Made by a program: the position numbers and the translations under genes
Notes under the pieces: generated by a model
Seen by the model: only the letters and a program-made list of their open reading frames with translations
What the model was told of the DNA's origin: nothing
The model's database searches: none
Virus record (IMG/VR): IMGVR_UViG_3300043446_001472
Coordinates: 1 to 21,873 of that record
Source: a virus
Direction: 5' to 3' (one strand)
Length of the DNA: 21,873 bases
Part shown: positions 377 to 21,739 of the stretch, one piece after another
Numbering within the stretch: position 1 is the first letter of the stretch
Layout: the number at the start of each line of letters is the position of its first letter

Positions 377-663
377 TAGTTGATTGTCCACCTACTCTGT
401 CGTGTGTAGTTTGCGTTGTAACGCAACTGTTGGCGTAGCGGGTCACGTGCATCAACAACGTTCCAACTTGTGGCGTTGTTGTAAGAGTTGCTATCAAACC
501 CTTGCATGCTGTTGCTGTTTGCACGGTTATAGATAACAATGGCACCAGCGTCCACGCTTACACGAATACGGTCTGCTGGGTCACGTGCAAAGTTGAGCAA
601 GTTTGCTATGCGGCGTAGCGCACTTTCAGTGCCTAAGTTATCGAAAGCATTTTTGAGCGGCAT
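376..663 (-). CDS. Small tail-module protein, unknown function
   Basis: This is a 95-residue protein starting [12 protein letters not shown] chose the ATG at 663 because it overlaps the upstream stop as TGATG; a GTG at 678 in the same frame would add five residues. The first 35 residues look helical (two short amphipathic helices, with SALRRIANLLNFARD), and the rest is polar and Asn/Tyr/Arg-rich. It lies between the collagen-like fibre and the propeller-like gene with overlaps at both ends, so it is translationally coupled with them and is probably a fibre-associated or tip protein. I do not recognise a family. Confidence 0.75.
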   Translation of the reverse strand: MPLKNAFDNLGTESALRRIANLLNFARDPADRIRVSVDAGAIVIYNRANSNSMQGFDSNSYNNATSWNVVDARDPLRQQLRYNANYTRQSRWTIN

Positions 664-1295
664 CAGTATCCAATCCACATAGTAAAGTCGGCCCCGCTGC
701 TACCTAGGCCAGTTTGCACCCACAAGTAACTTGCAGGTGGGCTGGCTGGTGCAGTGTTGCTTACAAAGATTTGCTGGTTCGTTTTGCGCACATAACGCAC
801 ATCGTTGTAAGCGTCCTCGAGGGCTTGGTCAAAACCTAGTTGCGCACTGGTGCTTGTGCCGCTGTTTGTTATCGGTGCAGTAACGGCAACAACGCCGCTA
901 GGGCCTTGTGGGCCTGTGGCACCTGTAGCACCTGTAGCACCAGTTGCACCAGTTGCACCAGTTGCACCCTGCGGGCCTACATCGCCTGTGTCGCCTTTAG
1001 GGCCTTGCGCACCTGTGGCACCTTGCGGGCCTTGTATGCCTTGCGGCCCCTGTGGGCCAACCGCACCAGTGCCTTCAACCGTAACTGGTGTCGCAGTAAC
1101 GTTCACCGCAACTTGCTGCACGTTTTCAACAACGGCAATGTCTTGCTGCACCGTGGTTTCAGTAACGCTAATCTGATTGACGCTCGCAGTAACGCTCACG
1201 CCGCTAGGCGTGCTTTCACTAACGGTCACACGTTGCACCGTTTCAGCAACACTGATGCCGCCGTTTACCTCAACCGTTACGTTACTCAAGCCCAA
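663..1295 (-). CDS. Collagen-like tail fibre protein
   Basis: The protein has 210 residues. Residues 1-78 are a Val/Thr/Ser-rich, strand-like N-terminal region with repeated V-x-V and V-x-E patterns. Residues 80-134 form a collagen-type Gly-X-Y run of about 18 triplets, including six consecutive Gly-Ala-Thr triplets. A C-terminal head of about 75 residues follows and ends in [10 protein letters not shown] and DFTMWIGY, a motif common at the ends of phage fibres. Collagen-like stalks trimerise, and the distal head usually binds the host or assembles partners. The frame begins with TTG at 1295, preceded by TAGGGCGG, and overlaps the upstream stop by 10 nt. A later start is possible, but the overlap and the ribosome site favour this one. 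Confidence 0.85.
894..1058 (-). repeat. Collagen-like Gly-X-Y coding repeat
   Basis: This tract encodes about 18 Gly-X-Y triplets (residues 80-134 of the fibre). The part between about 917 and 970 is a near-perfect 9-nt tandem repeat (GGTGCAACT and variants) coding Gly-Ala-Thr. Such tracts expand and contract by slippage or recombination, so stalk length may vary between related phages. Confidence 0.85.
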
Positions 1296-2352: not shown

Positions 2353-3437
2353 TCTGCGGTCTGCCTCGCTACTGCGCTCATGGGTTCAGTCTGTTTTAGC
2401 GGTATGTTCAGGCTGTCAATCACGGCACGCACCGTTATGCCGCCAATAGTCATTTGCACAACGTCAAGCGGTTCTAAAGCGGGGTTCACCACTGCGGGCC
2501 ACGACAGTTGAGCAGTGCTGCCCTTTATCATGGCCAAGATTTTGGTTGCTGCCACGGTGCACGCTGCAGTGGTTGTGAGCAGTGGCGATGAAAAGAAATA
2601 CGGCACTTGGCCGTAGCCACCTAGGTAGTAGGTTGGCGATGCAGGGTCGGTATCCCACACAACGGCACGTAGCGGCGTTGAAATGCCGCTGCCCTCTGCG
2701 CTCGCCACAACGCCGTTGTAAGTCTTTTCAAGGCTGCCCTGCACCCTAGCATCAAGCACCAGTTGCGTAGTGCCGCTACCAAAGTCAAACGATGGGCCAA
2801 CCGTTGCTGGGTCTTGCACAAGTTGTGCACGTGCAGTGCCCAAACCGTCAAAGTTTAGGTCGTAGCCATACGTGCTAAACAACTCACGTGCAACCTGCCA
2901 TGGGTCAGTGTAATCGCCTGCATCGTAGGTAATGTTGCTGCCAATAGTTGCGGTTACGTTGCTAAAGTTTGTGGCTACAAGCGACCAGCGGCTTTGCAGC
3001 AACGCTGTGCCTGCGGCGGCCAGCGTAGTGCCCGCAGTTATTTGGTAAGGGTCAATAAAGCGTGCACGGCTAATCTTTTTGCTACGGTCAGACCCTTGCC
3101 ACGACACGTAGCCTGCCACGTTGGCACTGTAGTCGGCACTATCGGTGCTAAACACACCCAGCGGCACATACTCGTAAGCACCGTTTACCAGCAAGCCACG
3201 GTAAATGGTCAGTTCAACGTTAGGGGTCATAACCAAGTCGTAAATGGCTTTAGTGCTAAGTGTGCCACTAGGCACCAGCGACAAACTGGCAGTGCGGGTA
3301 ATGTTGCGGCGGCTATCCATTTCAACCGAGCCACCAGTTGTGGCTAGTGTGTAACCATTGCTGGTAGTCACCAGCACGCTACTCACTTGGTTAGCGGAAC
3401 GAACAGCCGCTAAAAACCCTGCGCTCACCGAATACAT
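2349..3437 (-). CDS. Minor tail protein, baseplate hub-like (DUF5047-like)
   Basis: The protein has 362 residues; its ATG at 3437 overlaps the upstream stop as TAATG. The N-terminus (SAGFLAAVRSANQVSSVLV, then SVEMDSRRNITRTASLSLV) and the middle (VPLGVFSTDSADY, DPWQVARELFSTYGYDLNFD) match the layout of hub proteins annotated DUF5047 in actinobacteriophages, thought to resemble the T4 gp27/tail-associated lysin (Tal) hub. The final part (LEPLDVVQMTIGG, VRAVIDSLNIPL) fits the same family. The hub closes the tail tube and seats the fibres; its place directly after the tail protein that follows the tape measure is the usual one. No catalytic lysin domain is visible. Confidence 0.8.
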   Translation of the reverse strand: MYSVSAGFLAAVRSANQVSSVLVTTSNGYTLATTGGSVEMDSRRNITRTASLSLVPSGTLSTKAIYDLVMTPNVELTIYRGLLVNGAYEYVPLGVFSTDSADYSANVAGYVSWQGSDRSKKISRARFIDPYQITAGTTLAAAGTALLQSRWSLVATNFSNVTATIGSNITYDAGDYTDPWQVARELFSTYGYDLNFDGLGTARAQLVQDPATVGPSFDFGSGTTQLVLDARVQGSLEKTYNGVVASAEGSGISTPLRAVVWDTDPASPTYYLGGYGQVPYFFSSPLLTTTAACTVAATKILAMIKGSTAQLSWPAVVNPALEPLDVVQMTIGGITVRAVIDSLNIPLKQTEPMSAVARQTAE

Positions 3438-4990
3438 TACGGTGCCACCGTTTGCACATAGTTCACAGTCACGTTGCGGCGTGGCGAGGTATTTGTGCCA
3501 AGTATGTTTACACGTATGCCGCTAGTCAGGCGTATGTATTTTGACCAACCAAATGGACTTTCAAGCAGCAACACCTTTTGCGCCTCAAGCAATGCTCGCA
3601 GTGCGTTCCATTCAGCGGTGGTGCTGGTGTAAATGTTCAGGTCGCCGTCCCATGAGCCAAGCGTGCCCGCAACCACAACTGGGTAGCGGCGGTCAAGCGG
3701 CCTAAACACGCCAAGTTCCTCGTTCATTTCCTCACTTGGCTGGCCGATAATCTGCACATCAAGCATGTTCAGTGCAGGCGTTTCAGGGCACTTTATGTTC
3801 CAGTCAGCCACGGTAATGTTTGCGGTTTGGTTGCTAGTCCACGCAGATGCGTTTGTGGCACCAGCGTTAGTTGCGTTCACACGTGCACGGTAGAGCACGT
3901 TGATGCCACGTGTCAGTTCGTAGTCGTAAAACGTGCTGGCACTACCAAACGTGCCTGCAGCCGCCGTTGCGCCACGCACAGCCGTCCACGTAGTGCCGTT
4001 ATCCTCGCTGCGCTGCACGTCAATAGTGGGGTTGCTGTAGCCTGTGGTAGCAACTGGGGTTACAGCAATGGTTGCACGGTCATTGGTTTGGTCGCTGGTA
4101 ACGCTAATGGTTGGCGTGGTGGGTGGCGTTACGGACATGGTTAGCGTTACTGCGCTTGACCATGCGCCATACTGGTCGCTACCAAAACTGGTCTGGCCCT
4201 CACGGTATCTAATCGCACGTGCGTAAACGTTATAGGTGCCGTTGGCCAAAGCATCGGTAAATACAATGCTTTGTGCCACGGTGCCTGTAGCGGTGAACTG
4301 GTAGTCAAACGTCTTGGTTGCCCTCAGCGTGCCTGTGCCAACACCGCTGCCGCCGCTTTCAATGCGCACCTCGGTAGTCACCTTGCGCAAGTTCTGCCAG
4401 TCGTATGCGCTGGCCTCAAAGCCAATGGTGGCTGTAACGCTCACTGGGATGGTTGGGTAAACGCTGGTGGTCATGGTTGTTGCGGTAGGCGTGGCCGTAG
4501 CGTTTTTGATGGTGTAAACGTTTGCCCAAATGTCGTAAACGGTTGCAGGCGCAGCGAGAAAACTTGCATACCTGCCGTCATACCAAAGCATGCGCATGGC
4601 GTTGATTTCGGCTGGTGTCCAAGCCACGGTCTGGTAAGCGAGTTCAAACGTAGTAGCCGTGCTTATGGTGCCGTCAATCGTGATTGCGGGATAGCCGCTT
4701 GGCTGTGGGTCGGTATTACGGTAAGCAATAACGCCAAGCGAGTAACTGCCCGCACCACCAGTAGAGGCCAACAAACGCACAGCGTGGCCTACACGGCACA
4801 CATACTCATCGCTAGGTATAGAAACCGTGCCTAAACCAAACACCCACGTAATGGGGGTCACGTTAGCGGTATGGCTTACGCTCGTTGCATCGCTGTTATC
4901 GCCTAAATAGGCAAGCGTGTTTGCGGCGGTTTGGTTAGTGCCACCACCGTTAGTAACGGTAGTGGTAGGGCGCACAATGTAGGTTGCCAT
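3437..4990 (-). CDS. Minor tail protein with fibronectin-III-like domains, distal-tail candidate
   Basis: The protein has 517 residues, coupled to the tape measure gene through TAATG. Residues 1-165 are a beta-rich domain. Residues 170-400 hold two Ig/fibronectin-type repeats: WSSAVTLTMSVTPPTTPTIS is a typical junction, and ATIAVTPVATTG with YRARVNATNAG looks like fn3 strands. The last 110 residues (VAGTLGSWDGDLNIYTSTTAEW, then a QKVLLLESPFG segment and a final NVTVNYVQT) resemble the C-terminal domain of minor tail proteins placed where Dit normally lies, next to the tape measure. A role in joining the tube to the hub, with surface-exposed Ig-like domains, is likely. Confidence 0.8.
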   Translation of the reverse strand: MATYIVRPTTTVTNGGGTNQTAANTLAYLGDNSDATSVSHTANVTPITWVFGLGTVSIPSDEYVCRVGHAVRLLASTGGAGSYSLGVIAYRNTDPQPSGYPAITIDGTISTATTFELAYQTVAWTPAEINAMRMLWYDGRYASFLAAPATVYDIWANVYTIKNATATPTATTMTTSVYPTIPVSVTATIGFEASAYDWQNLRKVTTEVRIESGGSGVGTGTLRATKTFDYQFTATGTVAQSIVFTDALANGTYNVYARAIRYREGQTSFGSDQYGAWSSAVTLTMSVTPPTTPTISVTSDQTNDRATIAVTPVATTGYSNPTIDVQRSEDNGTTWTAVRGATAAAGTFGSASTFYDYELTRGINVLYRARVNATNAGATNASAWTSNQTANITVADWNIKCPETPALNMLDVQIIGQPSEEMNEELGVFRPLDRRYPVVVAGTLGSWDGDLNIYTSTTAEWNALRALLEAQKVLLLESPFGWSKYIRLTSGIRVNILGTNTSPRRNVTVNYVQTVAP

Positions 4991-17875: not shown

Positions 17876-18348
17876 TTGTTGTCCAACGTGTTGTTCAGCG
17901 TGCCCAAAATAGACATGCCTGTGATTTCCATGAGGCCCAAACGGATACGTGCGGCTGGGGTAAGCCCAAACGTTTCGGCGTAACGCAGCATGGTTGCTGC
18001 AGCGTCTTTTTGCACTTTGAGTAGCGGGTTTGTGATTGGCCCGCTGGCACCCTTTACCAGCACGCCAAACTGCGCAATGTTTGCGGTGGCTTGTGTGTGC
18101 ACCCACACGGCGTTGCAGTAAGCCTCAAGGCTCGGCAAGTAACTTTCACGCATGTGGTTTGCGCCGCCTAGGTCAGCAACAATGGCGTTCCAAACGCCGT
18201 GCACTTCCTTTGGCAGCGTGGCAGGTGCGGGGTAGGCGGGTTTGGTTTCAAGCACAAGCGGTGCCTGTGCTTTGGCCTTACCAGCGGCGGGCCTGTTACC
18301 TGTGCCACGCTTGGCACGGTTAGGGTCGGCTGGCCTGCCTTTAGCCAT
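17872..18348 (-). CDS. terS: Terminase small subunit, P27 family
   Basis: The protein has 158 residues if translation starts at ATG 18348 (MAKGRPADPNRAKRGTGNRP), which matches the usual basic opening of P27-type small terminases. An ATG at 18360 would add four residues; neither has a strong ribosome site. Domain pattern includes LPKEVHGVWNAIVADLGGA, YLPSLEAYCNAVWVHTQA, the G-G/A-S-G-P-x-x-N-P motif (GASGPITNPLLKVQ) and the C-terminal LTPAARIRLGL. It recognises the packaging site and activates TerL. It overlaps the upstream Mom-like gene by 8 nt and TerL by ATGA. Confidence 0.92.
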   Translation of the reverse strand: MAKGRPADPNRAKRGTGNRPAAGKAKAQAPLVLETKPAYPAPATLPKEVHGVWNAIVADLGGANHMRESYLPSLEAYCNAVWVHTQATANIAQFGVLVKGASGPITNPLLKVQKDAAATMLRYAETFGLTPAARIRLGLMEITGMSILGTLNNTLDNK

Positions 18349-19081
18349 GTGTGGCCCCATCTAAAAAGTGGAGCCCAGTAGTCGGAGTTGCACCGCTTTC
18401 TGCCAACTGGTCGCTGGCCGCATCACTAACAATGCTTACTGGGCGTAATCCACGATACATACGTGCACCCATTTTGTCCAAATCGGTGAACGGCATTTCG
18501 GGAACGGTCAAACGTTCACGCCAAGTGGGGTCAATAAAGTAAACGTAACGCAACTGGTAGCCGTCCAGCGGTTCCCAGTTTTTGAACTCGTCTTTCATCA
18601 TCAGGTGGTAAGCCTGCATGGTGTGCATGACTTCACCTGTTACTGGGTTGCGCCGCAGGCTGTCGCTCTCACGTATGTCGGTCAGCACAAAGCCGCTGGC
18701 ACGGTAAATAGTGCCATCGCCGCATTGCGTGCCGTCAGCAAAACTGACCACCCACTTTATGTGTGGGTAGTGCTTTTTGATGTAACGCATGGCGTAGCCA
18801 ATGGCACGGCTTTCGCTATTGCGTGGCAGCCAATCCGCAAATGCCATGCGGTTCAGTTCAATAAAGTTGTTCCACTCGGTGCCCTCAACCAAGTTCATCA
18901 TGGTTTGCTTGACCATGCTTGGCCCAAACTGCATGGCACCGCCGCACTTGCCGTTTAGGAATACGCCAAAGTGTAGTTGGCTGTTGGGAACGACCTTGCC
19001 GCTATAGTGCAGGTTCTTGATTACTAGGTTTGCGTCAGCGGCCTTGATTGGCTTGAGCACAATGTCTTTTGCACTTGCCAT
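18341..19081 (-). CDS. Mom-like DNA modification protein, paralogue 2 (GNAT fold)
   Basis: The protein has 246 residues; AAGGA lies 9 nt before ATG 19081. It matches the phage Mom-like family strongly: NLHYSGKVVPNSQLHFGVF (His25-Tyr26), GGAMQFGPS, FIELNRMAFADWLPRNSESR (residues 73-92), WVVSFADGTQCGDGTIYRASG (110-130) and the GYQLRYVYFIDPTWR segment. In phage Mu, Mom converts adenine to N6-carbamoylmethyladenine in DNA and so blocks many restriction enzymes. The adjacent paralogue shares the key positions HY, E-x-x-R at 75-78, N-S/T-E-S, C-G and Y-x-A-S-G. The last 33 residues are encoded by sequence that also forms a tRNA-like cloverleaf (18369-18444), and the tail LAESGATPTTGLHF carries its T-loop. 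Substrate and chemistry here are inferred. Confidence 0.88.
   Translation of the reverse strand: MASAKDIVLKPIKAADANLVIKNLHYSGKVVPNSQLHFGVFLNGKCGGAMQFGPSMVKQTMMNLVEGTEWNNFIELNRMAFADWLPRNSESRAIGYAMRYIKKHYPHIKWVVSFADGTQCGDGTIYRASGFVLTDIRESDSLRRNPVTGEVMHTMQAYHLMMKDEFKNWEPLDGYQLRYVYFIDPTWRERLTVPEMPFTDLDKMGARMYRGLRPVSIVSDAASDQLAESGATPTTGLHFLDGATHG
18369..18444 (-). ncRNA. tRNA-like cloverleaf, glycine-type identity (76 nt)
   Basis: On the minus strand the acceptor GCCCAGT (18438-18444) pairs perfectly with ACTGGGC (18373-18379), followed by U73 and CCA (18369-18371). Inside lie AA, a D-type arm (GCAT/ATGC, 8-nt loop, 18420-18435), G, an anticodon-type arm (GCCAG/TTGGC with one G-U, 7-nt loop CGACCAG, 18402-18418), a 4-nt variable region, and a T-type arm (AGCGG with CCG-CT around one bulged A, loop TGCAACT, 18380-18397). 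G1-C72, C2-G71, C3-G70, U73 and C35-C36 in the ACC triplet match known glycine identity elements. U33, G18-G19 and T-loop U55 are missing, so decoding is unlikely. It lies wholly inside the 3' end of the Mom-like gene and may be missed by standard tRNA tools. Confidence 0.6.
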
Positions 19082-19086
19082 GGTGG

Positions 19087-19833
19087 TTATTCCTTTGGTG
19101 GAGAACCGTGGACTTGAACCACGCCAACATCGCTGTTGTCTGCCCCTGCAGGTTCCCCGCTAGGTGCCACCCACTGTTGGTCACGCCTAAACTGTTTGCT
19201 GGCCTTTGGGTAAGGCTGTTGCTGTTTGGCTAACCTACGGCGAATGGACTTGTCTATAGGGTAAACGTAAAAGTAGCGGTGTGCATAGACGACACACCCA
19301 GAACCAAAAAGTTCCTCGCCCACTTGCTGCAACGTTTTGCCCTTGGTTTCAACACGGCCAAAACGTATGGGTGCAATCATGTTTTTGTATTCGCCTGCAT
19401 CGGTCAGGTAAAAGTCGTTGCAAGGCTGTGCGCCAAAGTAGAGCCAGCCGCTTGCCTGATACACAATGCCGCAATCGTCTTTGCAGCCGCCTGCGTGCGT
19501 AACCACCATGCGTAGGCCGTAGTCGGCTTTCAGTTTTTCAATGATGCGGGCAAGGCTGTAACTTTCTGTGTTGTGGCCGTAAAGGTCGCTAATCCACAAA
19601 CGCTGCATTTCAAGGTATTCGTGCTTGGCAATACCGTAGGCAACCTTGGCCACCTTTTTGTCGGTCTGCGTGCTGTAACCAAACACGCAAATGCCCACCA
19701 CCTTGTCGCCGTCCATGATGGCAATGTTCACCTTGGCCCCGCTGGGGTAGGTGCGCATGTAGTGCTGGGTTTCGCACACATGCTTTGCAACCTCACGGCT
19801 GCAGTATTTGTAGGTGAGGTTTCTAAAGTCCAC
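19087..19833 (-). CDS. Mom-like DNA modification protein, paralogue 1 (GNAT fold)
   Basis: The protein has 248 residues and starts at GTG 19833, overlapping the ParB-like gene by 11 nt with AGGG before it. It is a divergent member of the same family as the next gene: CETQHYMRTYPSGAKV (His24-Tyr25), VVGICVFGYS, EYLEMQRLWISD (E75-x-x-R78), HNTESYSLARII (88-91), MVVTHAGGCKDDCGIVYQASG (109-129). Lengths and spacing of these motifs match the other paralogue almost residue for residue, so the two arose by duplication or join of related genes. The C-terminal 24 residues are coded by sequence that also folds as a tRNA-like cloverleaf (19096-19158), and the stop codon follows 6 nt after its CCA. It probably modifies DNA bases, perhaps with a different group from its partner. 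Confidence 0.8.
   Translation of the reverse strand: MDFRNLTYKYCSREVAKHVCETQHYMRTYPSGAKVNIAIMDGDKVVGICVFGYSTQTDKKVAKVAYGIAKHEYLEMQRLWISDLYGHNTESYSLARIIEKLKADYGLRMVVTHAGGCKDDCGIVYQASGWLYFGAQPCNDFYLTDAGEYKNMIAPIRFGRVETKGKTLQQVGEELFGSGCVVYAHRYFYVYPIDKSIRRRLAKQQQPYPKASKQFRRDQQWVAPSGEPAGADNSDVGVVQVHGSPPKE
19096..19158 (-). ncRNA. Minimal tRNA-like cloverleaf, alanine-type identity (63 nt)
   Basis: On the minus strand the element reads, without a base to spare: acceptor GGGGAAC (19152-19158) with GTTCTCC (19100-19106); D-type arm CTGC-AGGG-GCAG (19140-19151); A; anticodon-position arm CAACA-GCGA-TGTTG (19125-19138); G; T arm CGTGG-TTCAAGT-CCACG (19107-19123); then discriminator A and encoded CCA (19096-19099). 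The acceptor has G1-C72, G2-C71, a G3-U70 wobble and A73, the determinants read by alanyl-tRNA synthetase. The anticodon loop is replaced by a GNRA tetraloop, so it cannot decode. T loop and CCA are those of a normal tRNA. It overlaps the last codons of the Mom-like gene, and the ribosome site of the next gene begins right after CCA. Confidence 0.75.
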
Positions 19834-20449
19834 TTAGGTAGCCCTTGCAAATCTCATAAATGGCGTTGGCGTTCACGTTGGCGTTCACATCGCTTTCAAT
19901 CTTTGTGTTCAGTTTGATTGCGGCAATGGCCTGCAGCACAACGTCTGCCTGCGTGCTGTGCAGCGTGAAAGTGATTTGCTGGAAGTCTGACTTGGGGCCG
20001 TCACTAAGTGCAGGCGGTTCAACTTCCTCAACATCAAACACTCCCATTTCAGTAGGCGTGAACCCTAGCGTGGCCATGCTGTAGCCCACAGCGTCCAACT
20101 CGAGCAACGTGCTGGCCAACTGCACATCGTTCCAGTTAGCCAGTTCAGCCGTGCGGTTATCGGCGAGCGCAAATGCACGTGCCTTGTCTGCGTCCCAATC
20201 GCTTGGCACCTCGGCAACCGCAATGTCTGACCAGCCCAAAGCGGTGGCAGCCTCAAGCGTGCCGTTGCCTGCAATGACTACAAGCGAGCCATCGTTTGCA
20301 CGTGCAACCACAATGGGTTTGCGCTGGCCAAACTGTTGCAGGCTTTGCTTTATCGCCTCAATGTTCCGCTCGTCATGCTGCCTAGCATTTTGCGGGTCAG
20401 GCGTAAGGCTTTTGATTTTTACGGTGGTTACTTTCAGCACATCGCTCAC
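19823..20449 (-). CDS. ParB-like nuclease-domain protein
   Basis: The protein has 208 residues and starts at GTG 20449, with AAGGTAAG 6 nt before it. Residues 8-110 match the ParB/sulfiredoxin-like domain: KIKSLTPDPQNARQHDERNI, AIKQSLQQFGQRKPIVV, the VVIAGNGTLEAATALG motif (57-72, equal to the GNGR-type motif of ParB nucleases, here GNGT), and AFALADNRTAELANWN (92-107). The C-terminal 70 residues have strands (QQITFTLHSTQADVVLQAI) of unknown fold. In phages such proteins commonly sit beside terminase or DNA-modification genes. Overlap with the first Mom-like gene suggests a joint role in DNA modification or in marking DNA for packaging. The Arg-to-Thr change in the motif could affect catalysis. 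Confidence 0.88.
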   Translation of the reverse strand: MSDVLKVTTVKIKSLTPDPQNARQHDERNIEAIKQSLQQFGQRKPIVVARANDGSLVVIAGNGTLEAATALGWSDIAVAEVPSDWDADKARAFALADNRTAELANWNDVQLASTLLELDAVGYSMATLGFTPTEMGVFDVEEVEPPALSDGPKSDFQQITFTLHSTQADVVLQAIAAIKLNTKIESDVNANVNANAIYEICKGYLSGL

Positions 20450-21035: not shown

Positions 21036-21218
21036 TTACACAGCGTCTGGGTGGCCTTTGCGGCGTATTTCAGGGTGGGTCCATACAAACCATGTGGGCA
21101 CGTTGCATGGTGGGCATGTGGGTGGCGTGTATTTGCCTTGCAGGGGTAGTGGTAGCCACCTGTAGTAGTGGGCCTTGCACTCTGGGCACATGAACCCTAG
21201 GCAGATGCGTTCGTTCAT
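21036..21218 (-). CDS. Small zinc-binding candidate with two CxxC motifs
   Basis: The protein has 60 residues starting MNERICLGFMCPECKAHYY. I chose ATG 21218 because it overlaps the stop of the NlpC/P60 gene as ATGA; the longer in-frame start at 21293 lies inside that gene. CPEC and CPPC are separated by about 20 residues, with His and Trp around them (HYYRWLPLPLQGKY, TWFVWTHPE), as in a zinc ribbon. The C-terminus is basic. It is translationally coupled with the peptidase and followed by a terminator. Function unknown. Confidence 0.8.
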   Translation of the reverse strand: MNERICLGFMCPECKAHYYRWLPLPLQGKYTPPTCPPCNVPTWFVWTHPEIRRKGHPDAV

Positions 21219-21739
21219 TGCTGCACTACTTGCACGTAGCGTATGTGGTCGCCTGCGTAGTCGGTCAGGGGTTGCACTACTGTGGTGCGCCACATGCTGT
21301 TGGCGTTTATTACTTTGCCGTGGCCTAGGTAGATGGCTGCGTGGTAGTAGGTGTTTGACCAGCGTTTGCGGAACAAAACTATGTCGCCTGCGTGTGGGTT
21401 GCGTGTGGGTTTACCTGCGTGTGCTTGTTTGTTTGCGCTGTGTGGCAGGGTTATGCCTAACTGTTCGTAGGCCCATACGACCATGCCGCTGCAATCCCAG
21501 CCGTATGGTGTTGCGCCGCTAAACACGTATGGTGTGCGGTGCACTTGCTTGCGTAGTTTGTGCAGCACGTTGCGCATGGTTGTGTGGTTGTGGCGTGCTA
21601 CGAGTTGCGCTATAAGGTCGGTGTGAGTGGGTGTGGCCACGTGTTGTGTGTGGGTTTGCAGTATTGCTTGGGCTTGGCTTGCGGTGCAGCCTGCGAGCAT
21701 TGCGAGCATGGCAAGTAAGGTCAGTAAGCGTGTGCGCAT
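21215..21739 (-). CDS. NlpC/P60 (C40) peptidase with lipoprotein signal
   Basis: The protein has 174 residues. Residues 1-18 are a lipoprotein signal: basic MRTR, hydrophobic LLTLLAMLAML, and a perfect lipobox Leu-Ala-Gly-Cys18. The NlpC/P60 domain spans about 65-174: PYVFSGATPYGWDCSGMVVW with the nucleophile Cys83, the AGDIVLFRKRW strand, His133 in YYHAAIYLGHGK, and Asn145 in VINANS as likely third catalytic residue. Such enzymes cut peptide stems of peptidoglycan. AGGA stands 4 nt before the ATG, just after the upstream stop. The membrane anchor is uncommon for a phage lysin; it could act in lysis, or be a surface lipoprotein expressed during infection that alters the wall or excludes other phages. 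Confidence 0.9.
   Translation of the reverse strand: MRTRLLTLLAMLAMLAGCTASQAQAILQTHTQHVATPTHTDLIAQLVARHNHTTMRNVLHKLRKQVHRTPYVFSGATPYGWDCSGMVVWAYEQLGITLPHSANKQAHAGKPTRNPHAGDIVLFRKRWSNTYYHAAIYLGHGKVINANSMWRTTVVQPLTDYAGDHIRYVQVVQQ

Follow-up and report, generated by a model that had tools for sequence, protein, structure and literature searches.

Many phage mom genes were found to end in a tRNA-like RNA, which suggests a charged RNA as the source of the amino-acid group of Mom. The RNAs themselves, the covariation of their stems, their identity elements, their lost decoding parts, their linkage to Mom and the agreement of RNA type with enzyme clade are established by computation. The material was a viral stretch of 21,873 nt (positions 1 to 21,873 of IMG/VR record IMGVR_UViG_3300043446_001472), here called the window, in which two such genes lie next to each other (Table 1).

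Table 1. Features of the mom locus in the window
Feature	Position	Strand	Details
Mom-family gene A	18341..19081	-	246 aa; PF25680 E 1.6e-52, 178.6 bits; partner of the Gly-type RNA
Gly-type tRNA-like RNA	18369..18444	-	76 nt, CCA encoded; ARAGORN tRNA-Gly(acc); spans gene A codons 213-238
Gly-type RNA landmarks	C35-C36 18410-18409; T-stem bulged A 18382; U73 18372	-	from the fold
Mom-family gene B	19087..19833	-	248 aa; PF25680 E 2.4e-37, 129 bits; partner of the Ala-type RNA
Ala-type tRNA-like RNA	19096..19158	-	63 nt, CCA encoded; within gene B codons 226-246; from the fold
Ala-type RNA landmarks	G3 19156; U70 19102; A73 19099	-	from the fold
ParB-like gene	19823..20449	-	PF02195 E 4.5e-6; upstream of mom; conserved neighbour

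The two tandem genes had been described as Mom-family paralogues in a preliminary description of this DNA, and this was borne out, as both proteins exceed the curated PF25680 cut-off of 27.1 bits and both have the fold of Mu Mom, at a mutual identity of about 22%. Structural searches with their AlphaFold models (pLDDT 83.6 for A and 79.7 for B, with residues 211-246 and 214-248, respectively, below 50) gave Mu Mom (8bv8) as the top match of enzyme A (Z 22.2, rmsd 3.4, 191 aligned; next row Z 13.9) and found it for enzyme B with Z 20.0 (rmsd 4.1, 196 aligned; next row Z 13.1). The column of Mu Mom Ser 124, the residue named in a PDB title reporting S124A as inactive, is invariant in all eight aligned proteins, enzymes A and B included. 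Mom has a GNAT fold, and numerous structural neighbours are annotated with acetyl-CoA or CoA; FemA (1lrz) appears among the matches of enzyme B with Z 11.1, level with many GNATs. In loci that extend 900 nt or more upstream, some of whose contigs are present in more than one locus, a ParB-like gene lies upstream of the first mom in 118/120 A-type, 53/53 B-type and 2/96 Mu-type loci.

Inside the 3′ end of each gene lies a cloverleaf with encoded CCA, of 76 nt in the Gly type and 63 nt in the Ala type, just as previously described. The five glycine identity elements then listed (U73, G1-C72, C2-G71, C35 and C36) are all present in the window copy, in which pair 3-70 is C3-G70 and the G3-C70 of bacterial tRNA-Gly is missing; the bacterial identity sets for tRNA-Gly, -Ala and -Ser were taken from the accessible text of PMC9976931. 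The judgement that both RNAs are unfit to decode also held, the Gly copy having G33, a T stem broken by a bulge and a D loop without GG, all at odds with an elongator tRNA, and the Ala copy a 4-nt loop where the 7-nt anticodon loop would be. Folding energy gave moderate evidence, with 3/200 and 9/200 shuffles folding as well as the two window elements, and because it is weak for single copies, comparative evidence was used instead. An Rfam search of the window at E ≤ 1 matched neither element; the two weak matches that it gave at other places of the window fall short of the gathering scores and seem to be chance matches. ARAGORN called no tmRNA.

In the Gly-type alignment 93.0% of the cells are paired, compared with 69.9% in shuffles, with double changes at 14 of 17 pairs, and 0/500 shuffles matched the observed values on four of five measures (7/500 on the fifth). 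Two held-out sets, whose alignments were both fitted to the structure of the covariance model, showed 98.9% paired cells (0/500 shuffles on four measures, 6/500 on the fifth) and 97.3% (0/500 on all five). Covariation of the cloverleaf stems, the test proposed in the preliminary description, was therewith found in a set of loci reaching far beyond the window, and the comparison confirmed both window elements as real tRNA-like RNAs and excluded chance. The three alignments hold 141 rows, distinct within each and comprising 139 distinct sequences overall, of which 109 rows were recovered by the covariance model and are thus biased toward its consensus; G1-C72 and C2-G71 occur in 141/141, U73 in 138/141, G3-C70 in 124/141 and the bulged A of the T stem in 131/141. 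CC at positions 35-36 was seen in 29/32, 61/61 and 43/48 rows (133/141 in total), and among these rows U33 is found in only 11/29, 25/61 and 17/43.

The Ala copy of the window folds into an acceptor, a D-like hairpin, the hairpin with the 4-nt loop and a T arm, and ends in ACCA. It contains both G3-U70 and A73, on which its alanine identity had been proposed, as well as the G2-C71 and G4-C69 of bacterial tRNA-Ala. Among 29 distinct Ala-type elements, A73, G2-C71 and G3.U70 were found in all 29 and G4-C69 in 27, A73 and G3.U70 always occurring together (29/29). These acceptor pairs were counted by a script that required all seven; a MAFFT alignment of the 29 copies misplaces the 5′ arms. Acceptor pairs 5-7 vary with compensation and G3.U70 is constant; unlike in the Gly type, the T stem is unbroken. 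The D loop is short, the G20 position being without a safe assignment, and the anticodon arm is absent in 22 of the 29.

Relatives of enzyme B carry either such Ala-type RNAs or another type, with G73 and a long variable arm, of which there are nine distinct copies. This Ser type has the G73, C72, G2-C71, R4-Y69 and large variable arm of bacterial tRNA-Ser. C11-G24 is not kept, the second D-stem pair being A-U, G-C, C-G or U-A, and as there is no anticodon arm, the G30-C40 listed for bacterial tRNA-Ser is missing too. In the alignment of 10 rows, pairs 1, 2 and 4 are constant, and the variable arm is paired in 90% of its cells with double changes at two pairs; 0/500 shuffles reached the observed covariation on four of five measures (5/500 on the fifth). 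G3.U70 occurs in 0/9 distinct copies in the register counted; one copy (L276, G73) allows two acceptor registers, one with G3.U70, and the script count and the alignment used different ones. Altogether, the tRNA-like elements measure 51-77 nt.

The positions held in each type nearly match the identity set published for its amino acid, and it is the decoding parts that decay. This bears on the reading of the elements as phage tRNA genes for translation, serving codon supply or rescue from a tRNA-cutting defence. Such genes would fit Microbacterium phage Appa, where a tRNA-Gly(ccc) adjoins mom, and some Mu-type elements that are close to a normal tRNA-Gly, but the Gly type has a bulged T stem and has not kept U33, the anticodon arm is gone from the Ser type and most Ala types, and the general tRNA model of Rfam misses both copies of Psychrobacter phage Y8A, which makes a role in translation very improbable. 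When this model was run on ten further loci, two Gly-type copies (in L128 and L273) scored above its cut-off, and in none of the loci searched with it was an Ala- or Ser-type copy matched.

The linkage of the RNA to Mom was observed by several approaches. The covariance model of the Gly type found the RNA beside Mom in 73/74 held-out viral loci and in 49/63 genome loci, two of the 63 (L154 and L155) matching only at E 0.01-0.13. A DNA pattern that was blind to Mom gave 118 copies, representing 97 distinct 100-nt contexts, of which 110 had Mom within 400 nt, and in a further pattern count 16/16 copies were linked to Mom. Genome matches of at least 43 bits were linked to Mom in 19/20 cases, at least 11 of these loci being already known from the Mom search. 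Of 428 Mom 3′ ends, a descriptor-based classifier labelled 258 on the Mom strand and three more on the other strand, as compared with 1/428 control intervals inside mom and 2/428 shuffled 3′ intervals, in a set of Mom domains that includes near-copies. Phage Y8A has two tandem copies behind one of its mom genes, and no tRNA genes are reported in the accessible text of the paper on this phage (PMC10434257), so that common annotation can miss these RNAs. The preliminary description had foreseen neither the Ser type nor the bulge of the T stem, the wide occurrence or the ParB-like partner.

The placement of the elements could also be explained by a processing or stability signal, which RNase P and RNase Z would cut so as to set the 3′ end of the mom mRNA and limit Mom, with no donor role. 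In agreement with this, the element overlaps or closely trails mom, lies on the mom strand in 70/73 viral matches and in 110/110 pattern copies near Mom, and in the window also separates the body of gene B from gene A. Processing, however, has no need of Gly, Ala or Ser identity, which is held while the decoding parts vary. Moreover, the RNA type tracks the enzyme clade, with three changes on the Mom tree compared with a mean of 19.2 and a minimum of 16 in 100 shuffles, the element lies on the opposite strand to mom in L096, L110, L113, L170 and L174, and the tRNA-Gly of phage Appa is annotated as a separate, convergent gene; a mere signal of this kind is accordingly unlikely. Across 142 loci the stop codon of Mom lies after the RNA in 99, inside it in 24 and before it in 19, and since its position varies, protein coding does not explain the conservation of the RNA. 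Prophages frequently integrate at the 3′ ends of tRNA or tmRNA genes, and the elements could in principle be remnants of attachment sites at host tRNA genes. Their cloverleafs, however, are complete, have covarying acceptor stems of their own and adjoin mom, and the three host tRNA-Gly genes that came up in the genome search differ and have a lower score (41.5 bits), so we give this origin hardly any credence.

Not every mom has the element. It was absent from the interval searched in 151/428 Mom domains, no tRNA-like element lies beside mom in Mu, the tRNA model finding none in the whole Mu genome, and for Mu (L042) and JD024 (L044) the element was absent or allowed no firm call. Among Mu-type loci, 11/80 have a Gly-like RNA without the bulge at the 3′ end, at a score of 17, for which 3.0 chance matches anywhere in the loci are expected per set. 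By eye and ARAGORN, none was seen behind mom in the phage isolates L182, L183, L184, L187 and L373-L380, and by eye none in the roughly 230 bases behind the Mom domain of L142, L146, L147, L149, L156, L160, L161, L164, L166 and L177, little of that stretch lying behind the gene in L177. Thirteen of the 63 genome loci gave no match, namely these ten, L179 and L181, with only part of a Mom match, and L138, with an odd RNA; the match in L153, 1.2 kb from mom, may be an ordinary tRNA. In the A-type viral locus L104, missed by the model, a copy is visible by eye. No element lies directly behind gene B in five of 68 B-type loci (L232, L233, L240, L252 and L253), the first three of which have an Ala-pattern copy elsewhere on the contig. 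L257 and L258 score just under the cut, yet look G73-type, L271 is apparently truncated internally, and L277, L278 and L281 stop at the sequence edge; L283-L292, with a distant Mom, were excluded from the B counts. The B-type loci L085, L269 and L272 were classed as Gly by the classifier, and all three also have an Ala-type element.

Eight of the 118 pattern copies have no Mom nearby. Those away from a sequence edge (L446, L451, and L420 with L465 in a common context) lie next to a gene like a C5-methyltransferase, a gene like a GNAT, or no gene of either kind, and ParB-like genes are present as well in L465 and L446. Together with the equal conservation of ParB-like genes beside these moms, such copies speak for RNAs that are charged for another acceptor or enzyme (a protein, the ParB-like partner or the cell wall), Mom keeping an acyl-CoA donor. 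We consider this quite unlikely, as a Gly RNA goes with some Mu-type moms, yet few Mu-type loci have a ParB-like gene, the amino-acid type changes along with the Mom clade, and the known product of Mu Mom is a glycinamide.

Very likely, then, the RNAs are dedicated non-decoding tRNAs, charged by the host, that serve the co-encoded Mom as aminoacyl donors for phage DNA. We infer that each RNA is expressed by co-transcription with mom and then cut from the mom messenger; host GlyRS would charge the Gly type with glycine and host AlaRS the Ala type with alanine. The bulged T stem, at the place of EF-Tu binding, would bar the Gly type from translation, and the want of an anticodon loop the Ala type. 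Each charged RNA would be the donor for its own Mom, with an adenine of the phage DNA as acceptor, and in relatives the Ser-type RNA would form a third kind paired with its own Mom clade. Transfer of glycine would initially yield N6-glycyl-adenine, which would then rearrange by an internal N-to-N shift to the isomer N6-(carbamoylmethyl)adenine known from Mu.

Charging by synthetases is favoured by the closeness of the constant positions to the Gly, Ala and Ser identity sets, by the loss of the anticodon arm in the Ser type and 22/29 Ala types, whose synthetases need none, by the retention in the Gly type of C35-C36, which its synthetase reads, and by the agreement of RNA type with enzyme clade. 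This supports the proposal of the preliminary description that the RNAs are charged by synthetases and that Mom hands on amino-acid groups to DNA. Against a donor RNA count Mu, the Mom domains without an element and a GNAT fold with CoA-linked neighbours, and also the C3-G70 of the window copy, the absence of C11-G24 and G30-C40 from the Ser type and the five B-type genes without an element. As Mu has no RNA beside mom, Mom can work without an RNA of its own, and Mu would need host Gly-tRNA. The whole Mom family, Mu included, probably consists of aminoacyl-tRNA:DNA aminoacyltransferases, enzyme and donor RNA being bound in one gene, with the identity of the RNA picking the amino acid (Gly, Ala, Ser and perhaps others), three kinds of RNA that have no Rfam family of their own, and an anticodon arm that was dropped where the synthetase is indifferent to it.

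To our knowledge, where the Mom side chain comes from has long been an open question, and we know of no earlier use of an aminoacyl-tRNA to modify DNA. If the donor role is true, a charged RNA encoded inside mom would answer that question, phages would choose among amino-acid marks against restriction, and the Ala and Ser types would be natural minimal tRNAs that reveal the real needs of their synthetases. This is directly testable in three isolates that carry the element, Arthrobacter phage Shade, Microbacterium phage Appa and Psychrobacter phage Y8A. The sole statement that we found on a donor of the side chain, in the accessible text of a comparative jumbo-phage study, assumes an acyl-CoA and gives glycyl-CoA as the example (PMC7824862). 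Among the matches listed by our literature search, which covered journal papers, few of them under subscription, and nothing from bioRxiv, the accessible text mentioned no donor RNA for Mu Mom and no link between Mom and tRNA.

Mu Mom has family (PF25680), fold (8bv8) and Ser 124 in common with enzymes A and B, and differs from the window genes in having no tRNA-like element beside its gene. The 3′ tRNA-like structures of plant viruses belong to RNA viruses, have His, Tyr or Val identity and play roles in replication. The tRNA-like domain of tmRNA has the alanine identity G3.U70 and A73, a small D arm and no anticodon arm; the Ala type shares G3.U70 and A73, the small D arm and, in most copies, the missing anticodon arm, but the phage RNAs are without a messenger-like domain or tag. 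In the FemXAB system the acceptor is peptidoglycan, the tRNAs are host-encoded and do not overlap the enzyme gene, and anticodon-less forms are not known, whereas the window RNAs overlap their enzyme genes, some phage RNAs lack the anticodon arm, and the proposed acceptor is DNA. According to the accessible text of PMC9976931, T-arm changes let the non-proteinogenic tRNA-Gly of S. aureus escape EF-Tu and donate glycine off the ribosome with FemXAB, and the amino acids that tRNAs most often supply to peptidoglycan are Gly, Ala and Ser. The likeness to that system would lie in a dedicated tRNA and, for the Gly type, in the bulged A of the T stem, which may impair binding of EF-Tu. With canonical bacterial tRNA-Gly, -Ala and -Ser, finally, the phage RNAs share most identity elements of the acceptor stem, whereas the features of decoding have been lost.

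The IMG/VR virus record IMGVR_UViG_3300043446_001472 (21,873 bases) is of the tailed-phage type, as judged from its terminase, portal and tail genes, and its minus strand carries a set consisting of a ParB-like gene, the Mom genes B and A and a small terminase gene. Enzymes A and B match Mu Mom, the DNA-modifying enzyme of phage Mu (PF25680; PDB 8bv8), in both profile and fold, and Ser 124, which is named in the PDB title of an inactive Mu Mom mutant, is conserved in both. The last 36 codons of each gene contain the respective RNA element, and the C-terminal tail overlapping this element showed very low AlphaFold confidence in both enzymes. The closest bacterial-genome relative of gene A that was found belongs to an uncultured Microbacteriaceae MAG (76%).

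Features of the window around the two mom genes, and two further open reading frames
Feature	Position	Strand	Length	Acceptor and 3' end	Remarks
Mom gene A	18341-19081	minus
Gene A RNA element (Gly-type)	18369-18444		76 nt	GCCCAGU/ACUGGGC, U73, CCA	3' end of gene A
Mom gene B	19087-19833	minus
Gene B RNA element (Ala-type)	19096-19158		63 nt	GGGGAAC/GUUCUCC, A73, CCA	3' end of gene B
ParB-like gene	19823-20449	minus			upstream of the mom genes
ORF	663-1295				among tail genes; collagen-like Gly-X-Y repeats
Small ORF	21215-21739				signal-like N terminus; matches phage tail families in their C-terminal part

Relatives of gene A were sampled from viral contigs and from genomes. Alignment of 32 copies of the Gly-type RNA revealed covariation in the acceptor, anticodon and T stems, the last of which carries on its 3' side a bulged A that is flanked in both directions by compensatory changes. 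When the covariance model of this RNA, R1, was applied to 74 held-out viral loci, it recovered the element in 73, each time within 400 nt of a Mom domain, and gave no further match at E ≤ 1 in 397 kb. Among 63 genome loci, the element was recovered in 50 at E ≤ 1 and in 48 at E ≤ 0.001, and all but one of the matched loci adjoin Mom, whose presence at two loci was judged from the match in the genome search for gene A relatives. In 630 genomes drawn by kinship, 27 matches were obtained at E ≤ 1e-4, 21 of them adjoining a mom gene (19 of 20 at 43 bits or more), and three matches without Mom were ordinary host tRNA-Gly of 41.5 bits. As at least 11 of the 21 loci, judged by contig and length, were known already from the Mom search of genomes, this search tests specificity more than it enlarges the sample. 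All viral contigs were also scanned with a DNA pattern, which yielded at least 118 Gly-type copies (97 distinct contexts); for 110 of the 118 listed, Mom lies on the same strand no more than 400 nt away. Four of the other eight sit at the edge of the available sequence, two of these in the same context as copies that do have Mom, and the remaining four represent three distinct contexts. Raw counts are inflated by near-identical contigs, and distinct counts were used where it matters.

In the three Gly-type alignments, which comprise 32, 61 and 48 distinct rows, the pairs G1-C72 and C2-G71 are invariant, and U73 is found in 138, CC at positions 35-36 in 133 and the bulged A in 131 of the 141 rows; two of these alignments contain model-found rows and thus lean to the model consensus. 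U33 is not conserved. The bacterial glycine identity set, as listed in a review (PMC9976931), consists of U73, G1-C72, C2-G71, G3-C70, C35 and C36; the window copy has C-G at position 3-70. The mom stop codon is located after the RNA in 99, inside it in 24 and before it in 19 of 142 loci, with the RNA conserved in all three arrangements, and the reading frame across the RNA differs among loci where mom overlaps it. Given this conservation at any stop position and the differing frames, selection at the mom 3' end acts on the RNA rather than on the peptide.

Relatives of gene B bear an RNA element other than the Gly-type. Sixty of 71 such loci passed the cut; their 38 distinct sequences form two classes with no intermediates, namely 29 with A73 and G3.U70 and nine with G73, the latter lacking G3.U70 in the register counted. 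In the first class, acceptor pairs 1 to 4 are almost fixed, with compensatory variation confined to pairs 5 to 7; this pattern matches the bacterial alanine identity set listed as A73, G2-C71, G3.U70 and G4-C69 (PMC9976931). Twenty-two of the 29 are only 51 to 53 nt long, leaving no room for an anticodon arm, and the window copy and six other longer copies retain extra sequence at its place. A MAFFT alignment of the 29 copies (A11) was poor and was excluded from counting. RNAs of the second class combine a long variable arm with the lack of an anticodon arm, and their four helices covary (96.7% of cells paired versus 81.5% in shuffles; 0 of 500 shuffles). This class fits serine identity by G73, G2-C71, R4-Y69 and the large variable region, whereas, of the serine set, C11-G24 is not conserved and G30-C40 cannot exist. 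Serine identity is described as independent of the anticodon, and the alanine set as listed has no anticodon element (PMC9976931). The anticodon arm is thus missing from RNAs whose synthetase does not read it and retained in the Gly-type, whose synthetase does.

When mapped onto a quick tree of 176 representative Mom domains, which has some long branches, the three RNA types required only 3 changes over the 118 rows with RNA, compared with a mean of 19.2 and a minimum of 16 for shuffled types, and the Ser type occupied four rows in a single clade with 100% SH-aLRT support. Rows without RNA were scattered over the tree (22 changes). Of 80 Mu-type loci in the family, 11 have a Gly-like RNA that lacks the bulge; such an RNA overlaps the mom stop codon in Arthrobacter phage Shade, and an annotated tRNA-Gly(ccc) lies just behind mom on the opposite strand in Microbacterium phage Appa. 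None of these RNAs was found in Mu, and no RNA element was seen at twelve other phage loci examined. In Psychrobacter phage Y8A, one mom gene is followed by two Gly-type RNAs in tandem (3162-3229 and 3234-3302 of stretch L043; 67 and 72 bits with R1), whereas no such RNA was seen after the other mom gene (L373); the Y8A paper reports no tRNA genes (PMC10434257). At loci L210 and L211, A-type mom genes form a tandem pair, the second of which is followed by a Gly-type RNA. By eye, an apparent anticodon-less tRNA-like element with A73-CCA and without G3.U70 is present at a Mom locus of a Tenericutes MAG (L138, about 3740-3800).

Among loci with enough upstream sequence, a ParB-like gene precedes mom in 118 of the 120 A-type loci and in all 53 B-type loci, but in only 2 of 96 Mu-type loci; it may be a third part of the system. 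One context present on two stretches (L420, element 832-860; L465, 500-528) has a Gly-type RNA with no Mom nearby, directly behind a gene that by eye is C5-methyltransferase-like and before a terminase-like gene, with ParB-like genes present on L465; here, the enzyme seems to have been replaced and the RNA retained. At L446 (near 12970), the genes preceding a Gly-type RNA are ParB-like (E 8e-17) and, in the case of a short one that the Mom profiles do not recognise, GNAT-like. Another copy (L198, 54 bits), located in a genome with no Mom within 1.5 kb on either side, is perhaps a remnant.

From the evidence, all of it comparative, we infer the following as the most likely scheme for expression, charging and transfer. 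Host tRNA-processing enzymes would cut the mom messenger at the RNA element, each transcript giving an RNA and losing the mom 3' end, and the host would charge the released RNA. The broken T stem would keep the Gly-type RNA away from EF-Tu; non-proteinogenic tRNA-Gly of S. aureus are described as escaping EF-Tu through T-arm changes (PMC9976931). Mom would transfer the aminoacyl group to DNA. The added mass of glycine from Gly-RNA equals that of the known Mu glycinamide, and thus an internal shift after transfer would yield the known Mu product, for which Mu would use host Gly-tRNA.

No paper connecting Mom with tRNA was found among the journal papers listed in the literature searches, and no Rfam family for these RNAs was among the matches obtained, some Gly-type copies passing the cut-off of the Rfam tRNA model. 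The Mom-linked RNA is neither a tmRNA nor a decoding tRNA. It resembles the Fem ligase systems in that a dedicated tRNA would serve the enzyme, but differs from them in its location inside the enzyme's gene and in its proposed acceptor, DNA.
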